Assembly: GCA_017470935.1 (NCBI GenBank)
Contig: JAFUXG010000024.1
Location: 1-48,468 of the forward strand
Length of the DNA: 48,468 nucleotides
Direction: 5' to 3'
From: Lachnospiraceae bacterium
GTDB taxonomy: Bacteria; Bacillota; Clostridia; Lachnospirales; Lachnospiraceae
Of this stretch, positions 40,762 through 48,468 are shown in pieces (the stretch's first letter is position 1; the number at the start of each line of letters is the position of its first letter). Made by a program: the position numbers and the translations under genes. The notes under the pieces were generated by a model. It ran no database searches. It was given only the letters and a program-made list of their open reading frames with translations, and was not told the origin of the DNA.

Positions 40762-41215
40762 TCATTTTTTCTTCTTATACTTGTATCTGACGTTTTTCAC
40801 TCCGGATTTCTTAATGAGCTTGACCGCCTTGTTATATACCTTTCTGTTCTTTGCATATATTGTTATCAGAGCATTCTTCCTGATCCCCTTAAATGCGTTC
40901 CTGCCTACCTTCTTAAGCTTATTGCCGTTAATCTTAATGCTCTTAAGCTTCTTATCACCGTTAAATGCATTCTTGCCGATCGTCATAATGCTGCTATTAG
41001 AAAAATCTGCTGTCTTAAGAGCCTTATCTCCCTTAAATGCTGCATTTCCTATGATTTCCAGGCTCGTTCCTGATTTGACCGTGGTCAATTTTGCCGCATT
41101 TTGAAAAGCACTTGTTCCAATCTCTTTAATATTATCATCAATTGTCACAATTTTTATCTTATTATTATTTTTAAATGCATTATCAGCAATCTTAGTGACC
41201 TGATACGTCACTCCG
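40762..41215 (-). repeat. C-terminal surface module, copy 2
   Basis: Second copy of the module described at 36875-37430; slightly shorter, having lost one repeat unit relative to the other two copies. Confidence 0.7.
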
Positions 41216-42405
41216 TCATCTCCTGTAATGGTACCAGAGATTATGACACATGCCTCATTACCGCCACCTGTTTCACTGGTGTATATGACCTCATTTGCAG
41301 CCTTAGATTCTGCCTTCTTCGCATTCTCTAAAGCAGTCTTGGCAGCACTTAATGTATTATTAGCTGTTGCAAGCTCTGCTTCCGTACTGCCAATCTTATT
41401 ATTAATCTCAGCCAAGTCACTTTGTGCCTTAGTCACAGCAGCTGTCACTTTATTATAATATGCTATGAAATCCTTCTCGTAGCTGTCAACATCAACACCT
41501 GTTCCGGTCCTGCCATAGGAATCAAATTCCTGGGCGTGAACCTTTACAGAGGAATTAACAGCGTAGCCTGTAACCGGGGTTTCGCTGACAATAATATTGA
41601 GATAATGTCCAACCTGATGATAGAAATCAGGATAACTCTGCGACAGCTGATAGGCTGACAGAGAGGAAGCCCCATCATAATTTCCTACATTATTCTGGTA
41701 AATAGTTTTCTCTTCCGTATACCATCCCACATAAGGATCAGCGATCCTCCCGGTGCCTCCGTACTTCACATTATATCCCTTGGCTAAATTCTCTGCCACA
41801 TTATAATAACTGGCATGTCCCCATTTATTAGCAGAATAATTGGCATCTGTCTGAGCCATGGCCATTGCCACATCATTGACAGTACATGGATTCAAGCCTT
41901 CATTTACTCGGATCTGATTGCACTCCTTGATCCAGTCAAGGGTAAGCTTCATATTCTCAAGGCTTGTGGCATCCCCCTCCTGTCCGATATTAGTGTATCC
42001 AATGAAACCGTCAGGAGCGGTTGTGCCCCTAAGATAAGAGCTCTTCACATTAGTACCTGTCAGAATATTCATGGCATCAGTGGAATTCTTGGATTTGAAA
42101 TACCCGTAGCTTCCCAGAGAAACCACTGCAACAGCCGCTGTAACAGCAGCCTCCTTTGTGACAGCTTCCGCCTTATATTCTTCAAGCTGTTTCTTCAAAA
42201 TGTCCACATTACTCTGTGCTGCATCCACCGCATTCTGGCATCTTATAACATCATCGCTTTCGCCAGATGCATTCACGTCTTGAACTGCTATACTATTTGT
42301 TAAATTCTCTGCCGCATATATAACATTGGGATTGTGACCTGTAACCACAGGGGCACTCAGTACAGCACACATTATTCCGGCTATAATCTTTCTAGTTATT
42401 CTCAT
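40762..42405 (-). CDS. Secreted CAP-domain protein with C-terminal repeat module
   Basis: A 547-residue exported protein. Signal peptide about 1-32, ending near VIYA-AEN. A helical segment is followed by a CAP/SCP-like domain (about 130-305): NQIRVNEGLNPCTVNDVAMAMAQ, WGHASYYNVAENLA, VGWYTEEK and HQVGHYLNII. A coiled coil lies at about 318-365, then LRR_5 repeats from about 395 to the lysine tail VRYKYKKKK. CAP domains bind or cleave cell wall or lipid ligands in other proteins; the role here is unknown. ATG 42405 follows AAGGGAG; the longer frame to 42450 is not supported. Confidence 0.85.
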   Translation of the reverse strand: MRITRKIIAGIMCAVLSAPVVTGHNPNVIYAAENLTNSIAVQDVNASGESDDVIRCQNAVDAAQSNVDILKKQLEEYKAEAVTKEAAVTAAVAVVSLGSYGYFKSKNSTDAMNILTGTNVKSSYLRGTTAPDGFIGYTNIGQEGDATSLENMKLTLDWIKECNQIRVNEGLNPCTVNDVAMAMAQTDANYSANKWGHASYYNVAENLAKGYNVKYGGTGRIADPYVGWYTEEKTIYQNNVGNYDGASSLSAYQLSQSYPDFYHQVGHYLNIIVSETPVTGYAVNSSVKVHAQEFDSYGRTGTGVDVDSYEKDFIAYYNKVTAAVTKAQSDLAEINNKIGSTEAELATANNTLSAAKTALENAKKAESKAANEVIYTSETGGGNEACVIISGTITGDDGVTYQVTKIADNAFKNNNKIKIVTIDDNIKEIGTSAFQNAAKLTTVKSGTSLEIIGNAAFKGDKALKTADFSNSSIMTIGKNAFNGDKKLKSIKINGNKLKKVGRNAFKGIRKNALITIYAKNRKVYNKAVKLIKKSGVKNVRYKYKKKK

Positions 42406-42565
42406 ATGTAACACTCCCTTCTGCTGCCTATTCAAATTCTCCAAGTACAAGAAAATTAACCCATGTATATTATAAAGCCATTCCAGAGGTTTGTCATTAT
42501 TTTATTTATATAAATTCGACCTATAAAGCTTTAGCCAATAGCATTATTAAATAGCTGTCCCCATA

Positions 42566-42610
42566 ATAAAACAGGCGGAAAGATCTAAAATCTATGATCC
42601 CTCCGCCTGT
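42566..42610 (-). terminator. Terminator of the GH16 gene
   Basis: ACAGGCGGA (42571-42579) pairs with TCCGCCTGT (42602-42610), followed by TTTTATT on the minus strand. Confidence 0.8.
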
Positions 42611-42644
42611 CTGATTCCTGATATTTTATAGCTATATTCTACCC

Positions 42645-43190
42645 TTACTTTTTCTTCTTGTACTTATACTTAACGCTGCTTGCCCCTGACTTCTTAATGA
42701 GCTTAACAACCTTGTTATAGGTCTTTTTATCCTTCGCATATATGGTTATGGTCGCTTTCTTCTTAATGTTCTTGAAGGCTCCCTTGCCAACCTTTGTGAT
42801 GGCATTACCATTAAGCTTAATAGTATTTAACTTCTTATCACCGTTAAATGCATTCTTGCCTATGGTCTTGACCCTGCTCTTTGAGAAATCCACTGATGTA
42901 AGAGCCTTATCACCCTTAAATGCAGACTCGCCAATCGATGTCACTGCACTGCCTGATGATATGACCTTCTTGAGCTTTGTACAGCCTGCAAATGAGTTCT
43001 TGTCTAGCTTAGCCACACTCTTGCCTAATTTGACCGTAGTCAAATTTGTTGCATTCTGGAAAGCGCCATCCCCTATCATTTTGATGTTAGCACCTATTGT
43101 AACATTCTTAAGAGCTGCGCCCTTAAATGCATCCTTAGGAATCTGTGTTACAGCCACATCCTGTCCATCAATCTTAACTATTGCAGGAAT
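42645..43190 (-). repeat. C-terminal surface module, copy 3
   Basis: Third copy of the module, very close to copy 1 over the last 150 residues, including FNGDKKLxTIKxNGN and the KVVKLIKKSGA segment. Confidence 0.75.
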
Positions 43191-46100
43191 CACAACACTT
43201 TCACTATTCTTTGCCAACTCAGATGGTGTATAGACAGCCTCTGTTGCACTTACTGCAGTATATGTGCCCTGCTCAGCAACTGCTGTTTCACCTGCTTCTA
43301 CAACACCATTGTTATTAGAATTGCCATCCTTTGCAACAGTCACAACAGGTTCAGCTGTTTTCTTTTCATCTTCCTTTTTCCGATCATCCTTCTTTTGATC
43401 ATCCTTCTTTTGATCATCCTTCTTGGCATCTTCAGCAGCCTTATCAGCTACAGCCTTTGCATCCTTATATGCCTGCTTTGCATCAGTAAGCTTCTTAACA
43501 ACACCCTTATCTACTAATGCCTTCTGACCATCTGTCAAAGCGTCATATGCCTTATCAGCTGTATCAATCTTTGCCTTACATGCCTCTGTGGCATTAACCT
43601 TACCGATCGCATTGATCAATTTAGCTACTGCATCTGCTGCATCCTTGTCTGTAGTATCCTCCACAGGTTCCTCATCTAATACCTTTTCCAGCTTAGGCTC
43701 AGATATTGTAATTGTTCCCGGTGCATTTTTGCCGCTTTCCATCTTACCCATCGAGATATAGAATGAAGTCATTGTATCATCATCCGGCATAGTAAAAGTA
43801 TCTGTCACAACCTTTTCACCTGATGTTATACCAATCTCCTCACCACCGCAATATCCTGTATAATCATTTGATCCGTCCAATCCTCCATTATGCTGGATTC
43901 CCCACATAATGTTGCGGTCAGTTGTTGAGCTGATCTTAAATGAAACCTGATATTTCTCTCCCTTCTTTAATACTACAGGTGACTGTTTTATCTGGACATG
44001 CCATACGTCTGAACCTACATCTTCTATTTCAAATGCAGCCTTGCCATCATTAAAAGCAATATCCGCAGCTGCTGTCTGCCCCTCATCGGGATTCCAATTG
44101 GCTACCGTTGTTTCCCAATCTGGCACAACATCCTCCTGTTTTTCAAAGGATGCATTCTTCAAAAGATTTACCCCGACAGGATTTGCCGGAACTGCCTGAT
44201 TCTCAGGAATATCCGCCTCAGCCTCATCAATTTCCTCAAGTGAAATATTATCTATAAATATACGGTGCTGTGTTGTTATCCGCTCATCAATCTTACCCAT
44301 TGCAAATCCGAATCTTGCCACCGGGTCTGAATCACTCTTCATCTTGAAGTCTTTGGTAAATGTCTTCCACTCACTTGTAAGATCCGCCTTTATGGCACTG
44401 AAATATGGTGTCCAGTCATCATCAGCACTGCCATTTCTCTGGATCACACATGTAATATTTCTGTCCAGAAGAGGTGACTTTGCATCAAATTTCAATCTGT
44501 AGCACTTATCCTTCTCAAGACTTATTCCATCTTGGTATAACTGCACATGCCAGTCCTCTGTTCCTGTATCCTTAATGGTAATATCAAAAGCATTATCTTC
44601 CTGCTGGCTGTCAATTGTATATTCTGAAACTGCCGTATCATAGGTGTACTGGGTAAATCCTGCAAGTCCTGCATCAAATGATCCGTTCTTGATCATTGCA
44701 TCCTCACATATCATAATGTCATCAACATAATAGGTTCCGGGAGCAGTGAAGCTCATTGTAAATGTTGTGGCATCATTTTCACTATACCCGAACTTGCTGT
44801 CATAAGCTTTTTCTTCTTCTGTAATCACATCATTTACCATCACCTTACCTACAGTTATAACAAGTGATCGGTCGTCTTCTGAAGCATTTTCCTTGTACGC
44901 TTTATATGATAACGAATATTTTCCTGTAACAAGCGGGAGATTACTCTGCTTAACAACCACAGGATTTTCTGCTGTTGTTCCTTCAGGAGCAACAATCTTA
45001 AGTCTTCTCTCATTGTTGGCATTAGTTACAGATATCTTCGTCTTATCATCATCGGAAATCTCCCAATATCCAAGACGTCCTGCACCCTCCTGAAACGAGC
45101 CATTATACACATAATTACCATCTGCACGAACCTCATGAAGCTTACTCTCATCAACCTTGCCACTTTCATCCTTCACCTTAAGCGAAACATTACTGATAGT
45201 TACCGGTGTTGTGGAATCCTGCTTACCTAAGTTAAATTCCAATGAACAGTTTGCATCTGTTGCTGCATCCATTGTAAAATCATATGTAAATAAATGGTTT
45301 TCTGTAGTAAGGTCTACCGTTGTGTCCTTAAAATATCTGGTCCAGTTCTTGTCCGGTCCCTCAATATCTACTACCATTGTTCTAGCTGCATCAGCCTTTG
45401 CATTAAATGAAAGAGTATATTCTACTCCCCTATAGAGAGGAAGACCTGCCTGCTTAAGCTGAATACTATGTGTCTGGGCACCTGCTGATGCCGAAGTAAT
45501 CTTAATAGAATTATCAGCGACAGCACATGTGGTGCCCTCAGCATCGCTCTCCAGATGAAGTGTCCAGTCATTTTCACTGTCAATCTCTGCTGCAAAATTA
45601 CCATTTGTCACATAATTTCCATTAGCATCTGCTTCCTTATATGTAACGATCTTTTCCGGTTTTACGGCATTTGCTTCCTTTTCTTCATAATATGAAGCTT
45701 CTTTCTGATAAACCCTTACCGAATCAATTACAAATGCGCTGTCCTCACCATATGTAGTTGTTTCGTCCGGATAACCAACCCAGCTTCCACCTACCGCAAG
45801 GTTCAATATCATATAGAACGGCTGGTCAAATGGTGCGGGGTACGCAACCTCACCACCGCCCTCAACTGCTGAAAACCAGTCATTTGCTTCATGATACTTA
45901 ACACCATCCACATACCATGAGATATGATCAGGCTCCCACTCAACAGAAAATGTATGAAAATTATCAGCAAAGCTGTCCACATTTGTAAATGTGTAATTAC
46001 CATTAATATCATTCCCTGAATCACTGTCAACCTTTACATATCCACTGTTATTGATAACTACTGTCCCCTGTTTCTGTCCATGTGGAGCGCCATAATGGAT

Positions 46101-46679
46101 TGTTCCGTACAGCTTATTGGTATTCTGACCCATAACCTCCATAGCATCAATCTCACCACACTTAGGCCACTGACCATACAGATTCTCATTGGTGGGCATC
46201 ATCCAGAATGCAGGCAGATATCCCATGCCTTTCGGAACTTTTACCTTTGCCTCAAACAGACCATACTTAAAATCATGCTTATTCTGTGTATTCACACGTC
46301 CTGATGTATAATGAGCATCTTTTCCCTCACCCTCTTTAATCGGAATAAGATAAAGCTTCCCATCCTTAACCACAATATTCTTATTACTATCATTGTTTTC
46401 CGAATCAACATACTCCTGAAGCTCTGCATTTACCCAGCCGGGTTCATGTAATTCTACATTCCAGTCATTACGGCTTAATGAAGTTCCATTGAATTCATCC
46501 TCCCATTTCATTGTATAACCGGCGTAGGATAATTCTACCGGTGTTTTAACAGCCGGAGTGTCACCACCTGCTGCCTCAGCAGTTGTTGCCGGAACCATCG
46601 TTCCCATAGCCATAGCCAGCGAAAGCATTACCGCACACGCTCTCTTTGCAATCTTCTTGTTCTTGATTGTCATTTTCAA
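42645..46679 (-). CDS. Secreted GH16 beta-glucanase with four CBM4/9-like domains and LRR module
   Basis: A 1344-residue extracellular hydrolase. Signal peptide about 1-37. The GH16 domain (about 50-326) has the catalytic motif GEIDAMEV (E176 nucleophile, E181 acid/base), implying beta-1,3 or mixed-linkage glucan hydrolysis. Four CBM4/9-like modules start near 352, 520, 661 and 838, each with an N-G-x-F type opening. A three-helix FIVAR-like segment (about 1010-1085, AYDALTDGQKALVDKG) and a Lys/Asp linker lead into LRR_5 repeats (about 1160-1310) and the tail VKYKYKKKK. ATG follows AAAGGAG. GH5 lies just upstream in the same orientation with no obvious terminator between, suggesting an operon. 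Confidence 0.93.
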   Translation of the reverse strand: MKMTIKNKKIAKRACAVMLSLAMAMGTMVPATTAEAAGGDTPAVKTPVELSYAGYTMKWEDEFNGTSLSRNDWNVELHEPGWVNAELQEYVDSENNDSNKNIVVKDGKLYLIPIKEGEGKDAHYTSGRVNTQNKHDFKYGLFEAKVKVPKGMGYLPAFWMMPTNENLYGQWPKCGEIDAMEVMGQNTNKLYGTIHYGAPHGQKQGTVVINNSGYVKVDSDSGNDINGNYTFTNVDSFADNFHTFSVEWEPDHISWYVDGVKYHEANDWFSAVEGGGEVAYPAPFDQPFYMILNLAVGGSWVGYPDETTTYGEDSAFVIDSVRVYQKEASYYEEKEANAVKPEKIVTYKEADANGNYVTNGNFAAEIDSENDWTLHLESDAEGTTCAVADNSIKITSASAGAQTHSIQLKQAGLPLYRGVEYTLSFNAKADAARTMVVDIEGPDKNWTRYFKDTTVDLTTENHLFTYDFTMDAATDANCSLEFNLGKQDSTTPVTISNVSLKVKDESGKVDESKLHEVRADGNYVYNGSFQEGAGRLGYWEISDDDKTKISVTNANNERRLKIVAPEGTTAENPVVVKQSNLPLVTGKYSLSYKAYKENASEDDRSLVITVGKVMVNDVITEEEKAYDSKFGYSENDATTFTMSFTAPGTYYVDDIMICEDAMIKNGSFDAGLAGFTQYTYDTAVSEYTIDSQQEDNAFDITIKDTGTEDWHVQLYQDGISLEKDKCYRLKFDAKSPLLDRNITCVIQRNGSADDDWTPYFSAIKADLTSEWKTFTKDFKMKSDSDPVARFGFAMGKIDERITTQHRIFIDNISLEEIDEAEADIPENQAVPANPVGVNLLKNASFEKQEDVVPDWETTVANWNPDEGQTAAADIAFNDGKAAFEIEDVGSDVWHVQIKQSPVVLKKGEKYQVSFKISSTTDRNIMWGIQHNGGLDGSNDYTGYCGGEEIGITSGEKVVTDTFTMPDDDTMTSFYISMGKMESGKNAPGTITISEPKLEKVLDEEPVEDTTDKDAADAVAKLINAIGKVNATEACKAKIDTADKAYDALTDGQKALVDKGVVKKLTDAKQAYKDAKAVADKAAEDAKKDDQKKDDQKKDDRKKEDEKKTAEPVVTVAKDGNSNNNGVVEAGETAVAEQGTYTAVSATEAVYTPSELAKNSESVVIPAIVKIDGQDVAVTQIPKDAFKGAALKNVTIGANIKMIGDGAFQNATNLTTVKLGKSVAKLDKNSFAGCTKLKKVISSGSAVTSIGESAFKGDKALTSVDFSKSRVKTIGKNAFNGDKKLNTIKLNGNAITKVGKGAFKNIKKKATITIYAKDKKTYNKVVKLIKKSGASSVKYKYKKKK
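43382..43426 (-). repeat. Three 15-bp tandem repeats in the GH16 linker
   Basis: GATCATCCTTCTTTT (plus strand) repeated three times, encoding KKDDQ units of the charged linker. Probably variable in copy number. Confidence 0.85.
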
Positions 46680-46769
46680 ATTTCTCCTTTCTTAATCCGA
46701 ACCATACTTTTTCTTCAATCTAATTTGTTATTATTGCGGGGGCATCTTCTTTTATCTATAACGGCACTA

Positions 46770-47792
46770 TTACTTGCCGTTCCATGTTCTTATCAGTTCA
46801 TCCCTGATGCTGTCGTAGTGTGCATCTGCAATCCCGAAATCCTTCTCCTTGTAATTCCATACACAGTAACGGATATCGTACTTTGAGAACACCTCATTTA
46901 CATCATCGAACCATCTCTTTGTATCTTCAACGGGTGCACGGTCTATAACGCCAAACTCTCCACAGTAGAGACCTACACCCGCATTCTTTGCTGCATTTAT
47001 GGCATCCTGTACCAGATCATCAATCAGCTGCTTTCCTATGTAATCAAGTCCACACTCATATACTGCCTTGCCCTGGTCACCAATAGTCTTGGACTTATCC
47101 ATGTATTCCCCCATTGTTCCCGGATATGCAATATCCCAGCCAGGATCCATGGCAGGTACCCAATAGGCCTTCTGATGGGTGAACAGTAGCGGCTCATAGA
47201 AATGAAATGTGAATATGATCTTATCATCATTAGGCTTTTCCAGAAGCTTTAATGTCCTGGCACTGTTCCACTGAATGCCGCCGTAAATGATATATGCCTC
47301 AGGTGCATTCTTTCTTATGGCACCCACCGCCTTCCTGATCAAGGCATTCCACGCATCAGCATTGTCTTCCTCTACCACCTCATTTAACAGCTCAAATGCT
47401 ACATTTTCATGACCTTTGAAGCTTGAAGAAATCTTATCCCAAAGTGCTACAAATCTGTCCTTTAACTTTTCATTCTGAAAGAGATTATTCTTGTCAGAGT
47501 CTCCTGCGTCATTGAAGTCGTACCCATAAGCCTTGTGAAGGTCAAGCACCACATTAAGCCCAAGCTCCTTGCACCAGCCTATCACACGCTCTACAATGGA
47601 ATAACCCTCCTGCCGGGGATAGCCTCCGTCGTCTTCCAGTACCTCATAATCTATAGGAAGTCTGATATGGTCAAATCCCCATCCTGCTATCCTTGAGATA
47701 TCTTCCCTCCCTATAAATGATTCATAATGCTCCTTGCTGTGCTCACACTGTGAAAGGTAACCTCCAAGATTGATTCCTCTGTTAAGCTTCAT
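46770..47792 (-). CDS. Intracellular GH5 beta-glycosidase (cellulase family)
   Basis: A 340-residue TIM-barrel hydrolase. HIRLPIDYE, DLHKAYGYDF, FELLNEV (acid/base E138), FHFYEPLLFTHQ and YCGEFGV (nucleophile E279) are the GH5 landmarks. No signal peptide, so it probably acts on imported beta-glucan oligosaccharides; exact linkage preference is open. ATG 47792 follows AAAGGAGG. It precedes the GH16 gene by 90 nt. A hairpin over its stop codon (AACGGCA 46760-46766 with TGCCGTT 46775-46781) lacks a T run. Upstream a TATAAT-like box (47895-47900) lacks a clear -35. Confidence 0.92.
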   Translation of the reverse strand: MKLNRGINLGGYLSQCEHSKEHYESFIGREDISRIAGWGFDHIRLPIDYEVLEDDGGYPRQEGYSIVERVIGWCKELGLNVVLDLHKAYGYDFNDAGDSDKNNLFQNEKLKDRFVALWDKISSSFKGHENVAFELLNEVVEEDNADAWNALIRKAVGAIRKNAPEAYIIYGGIQWNSARTLKLLEKPNDDKIIFTFHFYEPLLFTHQKAYWVPAMDPGWDIAYPGTMGEYMDKSKTIGDQGKAVYECGLDYIGKQLIDDLVQDAINAAKNAGVGLYCGEFGVIDRAPVEDTKRWFDDVNEVFSKYDIRYCVWNYKEKDFGIADAHYDSIRDELIRTWNGK

Positions 47793-47941
47793 AATTATGC
47801 TCCTCCTTTCTGCAGATAACCGGTACTGTCCACCAGCTAAAATATCTGCGTGATCTCTTGCTGTTAAGGGGAGTATATAAAATTCCCTGCCCAGATTATA
47901 TCTTTTTCATTTCACTTTTATCGTTTTTATGATATTATTAA
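47793..47941. other. GH5 upstream region
   Basis: About 150 bp between the GH5 start and the terminal-repeat element. It holds the candidate -10 on the minus strand and no clear catabolite-control site. Confidence 0.4.
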
Positions 47942-47972
47942 ATTACTGTTTAGTTAAGTTTTGAAACCGTAC

Positions 47973-48084
47973 GCGTAATGCCATCGATATGCCCGAATAT
48001 GTATGGCTGTTTGGACAGGCTTGAACTTCTAAGCCCTTTCCAATATGCCATACATATCCGGGCATATTCGACTGGCATTTACGC
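47973..48084. repeat. Left long hairpin of the element
   Basis: The 21-nt arms 47987-48007 and 48047-48067 match at 20 positions. Outer arms GCGTAATGCCA (47973) and TGGCATTTACGC (48073-48084) pair with one bulge. Inner TTGGA/TCCAA and GGCTT/AAGCC pairs continue the stem. Confidence 0.85.
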
Positions 48085-48132
48085 TGTTCGTTGGCAAAAG
48101 ATACTGATCAAACGTAAGTATCAGACAATCAT

Positions 48133-48161
48133 TTGTATGATTAGAATTTATAAAGTATATT
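48133..48161 (+). promoter_or_regulatory. Candidate promoter inside the element
   Basis: TTGTAT (48133-48138), 17-bp spacer, TATATT (48156-48161), pointing into the large right-hand stem. Transcript would start near 48168. Confidence 0.4.
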
Positions 48162-48167
48162 GTGTTA

Positions 48168-48428
48168 TAGTTTCGGTATCCACGTACAGCAGGTAAGCTG
48201 ACAGTATGGTGCGTTTTGTATGACATCTGGGAGGTGATTAGAGTTTCTTAGTATCCCTAAAATCACCAGCGGATGCGAGGCATGGATGCCGAGCAGGTGC
48301 GCCGGAGCCATGGATGGCGACTAAGCACCTTGCCGCGTACGTCATCATAGCTTTAACGGGATACTTAGAAACTCTTATCACCGTACAGAAAGTCATACAA
48401 AACGCACCATGCTGCCAGCTTACCTGCG
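48168..48428 (+). ncRNA. Candidate structured RNA
   Basis: Arms 48189-48257 and 48358-48427 pair at about 61 of 69 positions. The 100-nt apical region holds hairpins GGC-ATGGAT-GCC (48279-48290) and GCC-ATGGAT-GGC (48307-48318). The second is enclosed by GCAGGTGC (48293) and GCACCTTGC (48325). Strand and ends are uncertain; no terminator is seen. It could be a DNA-level palindrome only. Confidence 0.45.
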
Positions 48429-48468
48429 TCCGCCATACAAAAACAAAAGTTAACTAAACAGTAATATA

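Follow-up and report, generated by a model that had tools for sequence, protein, structure and literature searches.

TwoAYGGAY (RF01731) is rated in the table of Weinberg et al. 2010 (PMC2864571) as a probable RNA that is probably not cis-regulatory, and its type in Rfam is Cis-reg. From motif matches, Gardner et al. 2014 (PMC4333381) proposed that this RNA binds CsrA, a hypothesis which they considered testable and were in the course of validating; according to the same paper, the CsrB-type class had at that date been identified only in Gammaproteobacteria. Judging by sequence, TwoAYGGAY would share with CsrB/CsrC and RsmX/Y/Z the GGA hairpin loops of CsrA-binding type, more than one per RNA, although its two loops are placed on one long stem and its many copies are dispersed. 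Small RNAs are also known to arise from QMITE1 and QMITE2 of Coxiella burnetii (PMC5896051), which are likewise MITEs, with ~50 copies, QMITE2 being found for the most part in 3' UTRs and between genes; however, the organism is a different one, and the abstract mentions neither a link to CsrA nor an Rfam family. Passages of the Rfam 12 paper (PMC4383904) caution that miRNA families can be confounded by MITEs; TwoAYGGAY is not mentioned in them. Among the matches listed in searches of the literature on TwoAYGGAY, on CsrA sponges and MITEs, and on MITEs, sRNAs and Lachnospiraceae, which mostly leave subscription papers outside, there was no report of TwoAYGGAY mobility.

The window, i.e. the whole stretch of 48,468 nt analysed here, ends with a 524-bp element (47942-48465) which stops 3 bases short of the contig end. 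Its second hairpin matches RF01731 in sequence and structure over the full model (positions 1-168 of 168), at twice the gathering score (89.2 bits against 43). Compared with the TwoAYGGAY entry of Weinberg et al., as far as that entry goes, the RNA is found here in many copies per genome, resides (in this genus) in a terminal-repeat element and has long arms outside the model. The best reading of the element is a MITE-like carrier of TwoAYGGAY RNA. We therefore deal with an already known RNA family that is carried by a MITE-like element and for which the function of a CsrA decoy, predicted from the loops, is a well-motivated hypothesis. CsrA binding had already been proposed (Gardner et al. 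2014), whereas the mobility, the copy number and the co-occurrence with CsrA are new here.

Layout of the element and its copies

The window copy consists of the following features:

47942..47963, + strand: left terminal inverted repeat, ATTACTGTTTAGTTAAGTTTTG; 67 genomic matches at ≤3 mismatches, reversed-pattern control 0
47977..48079, no strand: first palindrome, in place of the left half of complete elements, which is the site of their minus-strand TwoAYGGAY hairpin
48090..48188, no strand: AT-rich spacer, largely conserved in two aligned complete elements of the same genome; weak promoter-like sites
48189..48225, + strand: outer arm of the TwoAYGGAY hairpin, 5' side (palindrome search and RNA fold)
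48226..48389, + strand: TwoAYGGAY RNA (RF01731), 89.2 bits, full-length match 1-168
48281..48288, + strand: putative CsrA-type site 1, C-AUGGAU-G, hexaloop 48282-48287 (sequence and loop statistics in relatives)
48309..48316, + strand: putative CsrA-type site 2, C-AUGGAU-G, hexaloop 48310-48315 (sequence and loop statistics in relatives)
48390..48427, + strand: outer arm of the TwoAYGGAY hairpin, 3' side (palindrome search and RNA fold)
48444..48465, - strand: right terminal inverted repeat, 1 mismatch vs the left repeat

Most of this architecture had been recognized in the earlier note and is confirmed. The 22-bp terminal inverted repeats with one mismatch lie at 47942-47963 and 48444-48465, the arms of the first, imperfect hairpin (47987-48019 and 48035-48067) are 85% complementary, and the long stem of the second hairpin pairs 48189-48224 with 48392-48427 (94%) and then 48226-48257 with 48358-48389 (84%). 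What had been described as a GC-rich ordered apical core is Rfam TwoAYGGAY, at 48226-48389. Folded as RNA, the whole 524 nt reach -245.2 kcal/mol (z -18.9; 0/100 shuffles as stable) and the second palindrome, 48189-48427, reaches -135.6 (z -14.8; 0/200 shuffles as stable). By contrast, the promoter considered plausible for the spacer turned out to be weak. A scan of 47780-48468 returned 5 promoter matches vs 1.8 expected in shuffles, with minus-strand matches in the spacer (48182-48154, 9/12) and across the left end (47957-47929); on the plus strand there were two matches at 47904-47938 and none inside the element, where TTGTAT-17-TATATT at 48133-48161, noted in the spacer by eye, fits at just 8/12. 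Elsewhere in the window, at 40762-47792, there are genes for two large proteins, of 562 and 1344 aa, which have by eye a similar C-terminal repeat region and adjoin a 340-aa gene that looks glycoside-hydrolase-like.

In the window's own genome (G000; 75 contigs, 77.75% complete), 67 element ends are found at ≤3 mismatches (35 in forward and 32 in reverse orientation), as opposed to 0 for the reversed pattern, and the copy number estimated from these counts is thirty-odd, ~34. Most of the ends are a few hundred bases or less from a contig end, as would be expected if the assembler was unable to cross the repeat. In the congeners G300 and G307, a slightly different pattern yields 63 and 68 ends, respectively (control 1 per genome), and matches to RF01731 number 19 in G000, 25 in G300 and 21 in G307. 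The original end pattern was matched in 6/26 genomes of the genus, in three of these once each. Multiple copies with the same ends are therefore present in the own genome and in both congeners, and the suggestion of the earlier note, a non-coding RNA gene carried by a non-autonomous element, is supported by the ends shared among many copies together with the curated RNA family inside. Several features of a MITE are there: a length of 524 bp, many copies, terminal inverted repeats, internal ORFs of 72 aa (the longest) and 65 aa, and no transposase gene inside.

Complete elements of the own genome, e.g. C18:41600-42257 and C2:14933-15589, have two TwoAYGGAY hairpins on opposite strands, which point outwards and flank an AT-rich spacer of ~100 nt. 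Closely spaced hairpins are divergent in 7/7 pairs of the own genus (all G300 matches and the two complete G000 elements) and in 13/14 pairs of four other genomes. Aligned to the complete elements, the window copy has kept the right hairpin, whereas on the left the RNA core is absent and the stem is a different one; the Rfam search gave no RF01731 match in the first palindrome (47977..48079), and we infer that its RNA core was lost. Rfam matches of miRNA type in this hairpin are all far under the gathering scores and most likely chance matches to a hairpin. Other variants were also encountered. Two G000 loci of 40 and 51 bp (C17:59625-59664 and C54:93270-93320; L107 and L105) are barely more than two end repeats, and in one complete element of G300 (L163, C7:40224-40985) ~150 nt of different sequence stand in place of the left RNA core or break it up.

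Outside the genus, a search of named genomes with the exact stem pattern produced 59 stretches, of which 50 are titled Lachnospiraceae and none is titled another family, the other nine being titled Clostridia, Clostridiales or Eubacteriales (6) or only 'bacterium' (3). Four related genomes reached from these stretches (G323-G326) contain 39, 49, 28 and 33 RF01731 matches, 49 being the maximum per genome.

CsrA-type loops and the company of CsrA

A hexaloop ANGGAN with a C-G closing pair is a known site of the CsrA/RsmE type. Both terminal loops of the window copy have the sequence AUGGAU (48282-48287 and 48310-48315), with C and G flanks able to pair, although the single-sequence minimum-energy fold forms the hairpin of loop 1 and not that of loop 2. 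For statistics on loops, core stems and outer arms we used 153 related cores, comprising 124 copies from G323-G326 and 29 loci from a sample of 299 genomes of the window's own family; the 59 stem-pattern stretches were kept apart, since they were chosen by stem pattern and come partly from the same genomes. A hexaloop ANGGAN on a closing stem of ≥4 bp is present in 138/153 cores and missing in 15; a less strict criterion, which accepts loops of 4-7 nt that contain GGA if there are ≥5 Watson-Crick pairs, leaves 9/153 cores without any. Altogether, 182 such hexaloops are found on the RNA strand, 154 of them with a C-G closing pair, compared with 7 on the other strand and 0.8 in mononucleotide shuffles. 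The stem positions around the loops vary through all four Watson-Crick pairs while the loops stay. Both apical loops thus look like predicted docking sites for CsrA.

The distribution of the RNA was analysed in the 299-genome sample, in which 45 genomes are RF01731-positive and 254 are not; at most 9 candidates per genome were scored under strict filters, so that copy numbers are minimum values and some genomes may be false negatives (the own genome gave at least 9 matches under these filters vs 19 in the fuller search). CsrA, which in the host itself is encoded at C25:47665-47823 (E 7.8e-26 in a search of the own genome), is present in 44/45 RNA-positive and in 110/254 other genomes (Fisher p 1.7e-13, phylogeny ignored). 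Flagellin, again with phylogeny ignored, is found in 45/45 and 111/254 genomes, respectively, whereas SpoIVA, a patchy sporulation gene, displays no association with the RNA (26/45 vs 168/254, p 0.31). The sole RNA-positive genome without a CsrA match, G168, has flagellin; its RNA (L072, C18:235-401) is located close to the start of a contig, so that the assembly may simply lack CsrA. Since the sets of genomes with CsrA and with flagellin differ by just 8 genomes, CsrA and motility are inseparable here, and the association of the RNA with CsrA may reflect motility or lineage. The RNA is thus associated with the motility/CsrA module, of which CsrA is the member indicated by the loops.

These data bear on whether the element is anything but selfish, in which case the RNA family would just reflect the success of a palindromic transposon, without any role for CsrA. 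Up to 49 matches per genome, common ends and the absence of a preference for G-U, also in the core stems (see below), fit such an origin. Against it speak a loop sequence and closing pair that are held on one strand while the stems vary, as well as the presence of flagellin in 45/45 and of CsrA in 44/45 RNA-positive genomes, and we consider this explanation unlikely.

How the stems stay matched

Arms were measured for 89 matches (29 from the 299-genome sample and 60 in the 59 stem-pattern stretches), and L072, L097, L232 and L237 are among the few loci without a proper arm. For G323-G326, the arm, ortholog and context analyses covered 124 of the 149 matches, 119 of them with genes on both sides. 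In these genomes, the arm has a median length of 64 nt, and non-orthologous copies align with each other for a median of 21 nt past the model on the left arm; yet the outer pairs within each of the 124 copies are Watson-Crick in 7157/7640 cases. The outer stems are therefore largely copy-specific and nevertheless self-complementary. In one filled/empty pair of sites (G323 vs L223), the empty site already contains, with two differences, the sequence of the ~12 outermost nt of the right arm, and the left arm carries an inverted copy of these ~12 nt, as if in this case the palindrome grew by copying its flank; a second empty site was left out, as it was not clean. The possibility that the arms are copies of coding sequence was dismissed, given that just 5 left and 10 right arms out of 119 overlap with mechanical ORFs.

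Orthologous loci of the same four genomes, which are outside the window's genus, reveal how the arms change. The comparison comprises 23 locus pairs and 1040 outer stem pairs, with 83 non-Watson-Crick and 17 gapped pairs set aside. Divergence per site is 5.9% in the core, 6.1% in the arm and ~7.1% in the flank. Double changes number 38 vs 3.9 expected under independence (~10x), next to 51 single changes, and the outcome is Watson-Crick in 33/38, through transitions in 17 cases and transversions in 16; the ts/tv of these compensated changes is similar to the flank ratio of 1.65 (p 0.21). The double changes are uneven, with 9/23 locus pairs having any and one pair supplying 15/38. The single changes are divided into 16 G-U, 14 A-C and 21 other mismatches. 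In the outer arms of the 124 copies, A-C even exceeds G-U on the RNA strand (146 vs 98, p 0.0026), which could stem from strand-biased mutation or from selection on the opposite strand. The core stems, in an alignment of 150 of the 153 cores (after removal of duplicates and odd lengths), have 52 G-U and 48 A-C. In 13 distinct tRNAs taken as a control the numbers are 20 G-U and 0 A-C, a weak comparison, as ARAGORN itself likely favours G-U over A-C.

If a folded RNA were under selection, G-U would be expected to outnumber A-C on its strand, and this preference is absent in the single changes, in the outer arms and in the core stems. The covariation which the earlier note had put forward as a check is strong, but without a G-U preference in the related genomes it is by itself no proof of RNA function. 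If the stems covaried simply because the RNA fold is selected, template switching would be unneeded, and two observations are in line with this: 4414/4629 ungapped cells of the core alignment are Watson-Crick or G-U, and the part of the Rfam 15 paper concerned (PMC11701678) reports an R-scape improvement of TwoAYGGAY with 2 additional covarying pairs. However, the single-step states lack a G-U bias (16 vs 14), 16/33 compensations are transversions, a type of change not attainable by way of G-U intermediates, and G-U and A-C are about equal in the core stems (52 vs 48). We thus regard ordinary RNA selection as doubtful, although strong selection with fast compensation may be an alternative source of matched stems.

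The concerted changes of the two arms point to DNA template switching as the simplest explanation. According to Monttinen and Loytynoja 2022 (PMC8794818), this process, studied in microbes, is proposed to maintain RNA hairpins, and the changes they describe are likewise concerted between the two arms of a stem, without need of G-U intermediates. Their compensatory analysis concerns rRNA genes, whereas here the long outer arms, which differ largely from copy to copy, drift at approximately the flank rate.

Gene neighbourhood, insertion sites and a possible decoy role

Insertion sites were inspected for 20 complete elements, namely, 15 from G300 (out of 17 complete pairs) and 5 from G000, with the window copy considered apart. 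In 11/20 elements, one end is 0-4 nt from the stop codon of a gene reading towards the element, and in 4/20 TA is found two bases beyond both ends; the window copy follows the same stop-codon and TA pattern, as far as its short right flank reaches. Target duplications, which the earlier note had envisaged, are thus blurred at best and not uniform. At one G300 element, the left neighbour, presumably a glutamate-synthase-like gene (gltB/gltD), ends with GGATAA directly before the element in both G300 and G307, whereas at the same site in G313, G312 and G304 its sequence runs on into the next gene. The right flank of this element is on another contig in G307, beside another element. Exchange between copies or misassembly would explain both the split flanks and the blurred duplications. 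The region behind the glutamate-synthase-like gene is a possible insertion hot spot (G300:C16 and G307:C5, perhaps also G325:C27:259038 and G326:C33:9856), and flank matches to this gene in distant genomes (L365, L368, L369) are weak, ~67-73%.

The search with the end pattern in G000, G300 and G307 (for G307, among the matches listed) detected no partner transposase between matching ends. Inward-facing end pairs among the matches listed for G000 and G300 are <1 kb apart, and the assemblies break at the repeat. Widely spaced divergent pairs were also considered as possible hosts of a transposase, but the ORFs in nine such loci resemble ordinary chromosomal genes by eye. Carriage by phages or plasmids was rejected as well: there was no DNA match in the phage or plasmid collection, the core stem pattern had 0 exact matches in viral contigs, and the 11 end-pattern matches in viral contigs, having no inward-facing and rightly spaced partner at ≤4 mismatches, were taken as chance.

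The position of the copies relative to genes suggests yet another role. In 74/119 copies from G323-G326, the gene (mechanical ORF) met by the 3' side is on the opposite strand, and in 47 of these 74 the distance to its stop codon is 5-50 nt. Because copies sit near stop codons of the opposite strand, a terminator or 3'-UTR role stays a serious rival: the palindromes would end or protect the mRNA of the abutting gene on either strand, and the GGA loops would be incidental or would serve that mRNA. The 11/20 complete elements of the own genus with an end 0-4 nt from a stop codon agree with this, and the A-C excess in the outer arms (146 vs 98) is in the direction expected if the other strand folds. 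On the other hand, the ANGGAN loops favour the RF01731 strand by 182 to 7, the scan of the element region called no intrinsic terminator in the window copy, and the A-C excess is small and could be mutational. We assign this alternative, too, a low probability.

Overall, we lean, with modest confidence, towards a MITE-like element without a transposase, the cargo of which is TwoAYGGAY RNA acting as a CsrA decoy and the arms of which are kept matched by template switching. In such an element, the RNAs would start in the spacer and be read outwards, and each would fold into a long hairpin offering two ANGGAN loops to a CsrA dimer. CsrA would then be titrated as it is by RNAs of the CsrB/RsmZ type, with the copies scattered round the genome representing the decoy dose. 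The long stems would at the same time be DNA palindromes whose arms change in concert at approximately the flank rate, and template switching during replication (quasipalindrome correction) would let the stem sequence drift while the loops are fixed. The broader proposition is possible but more tentative: motile Lachnospiraceae would possess dispersed, mobile CsrA decoy RNAs, with transposition and copy number determining their dose, and the covariation of these RNAs would come from template switching and not from selection on RNA pairing.

A mobile, multicopy antagonist of CsrA would, if true, represent a new way to set the dose of a regulator, and it makes the motif-based proposal of Gardner et al. 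directly testable. Furthermore, stems that stay matched while drifting at approximately the flank rate without a G-U bias imply that strong covariation is possible without evidence of selection at the RNA level. If this is true, TwoAYGGAY would be a natural warning case for covariation-based discovery of RNAs.
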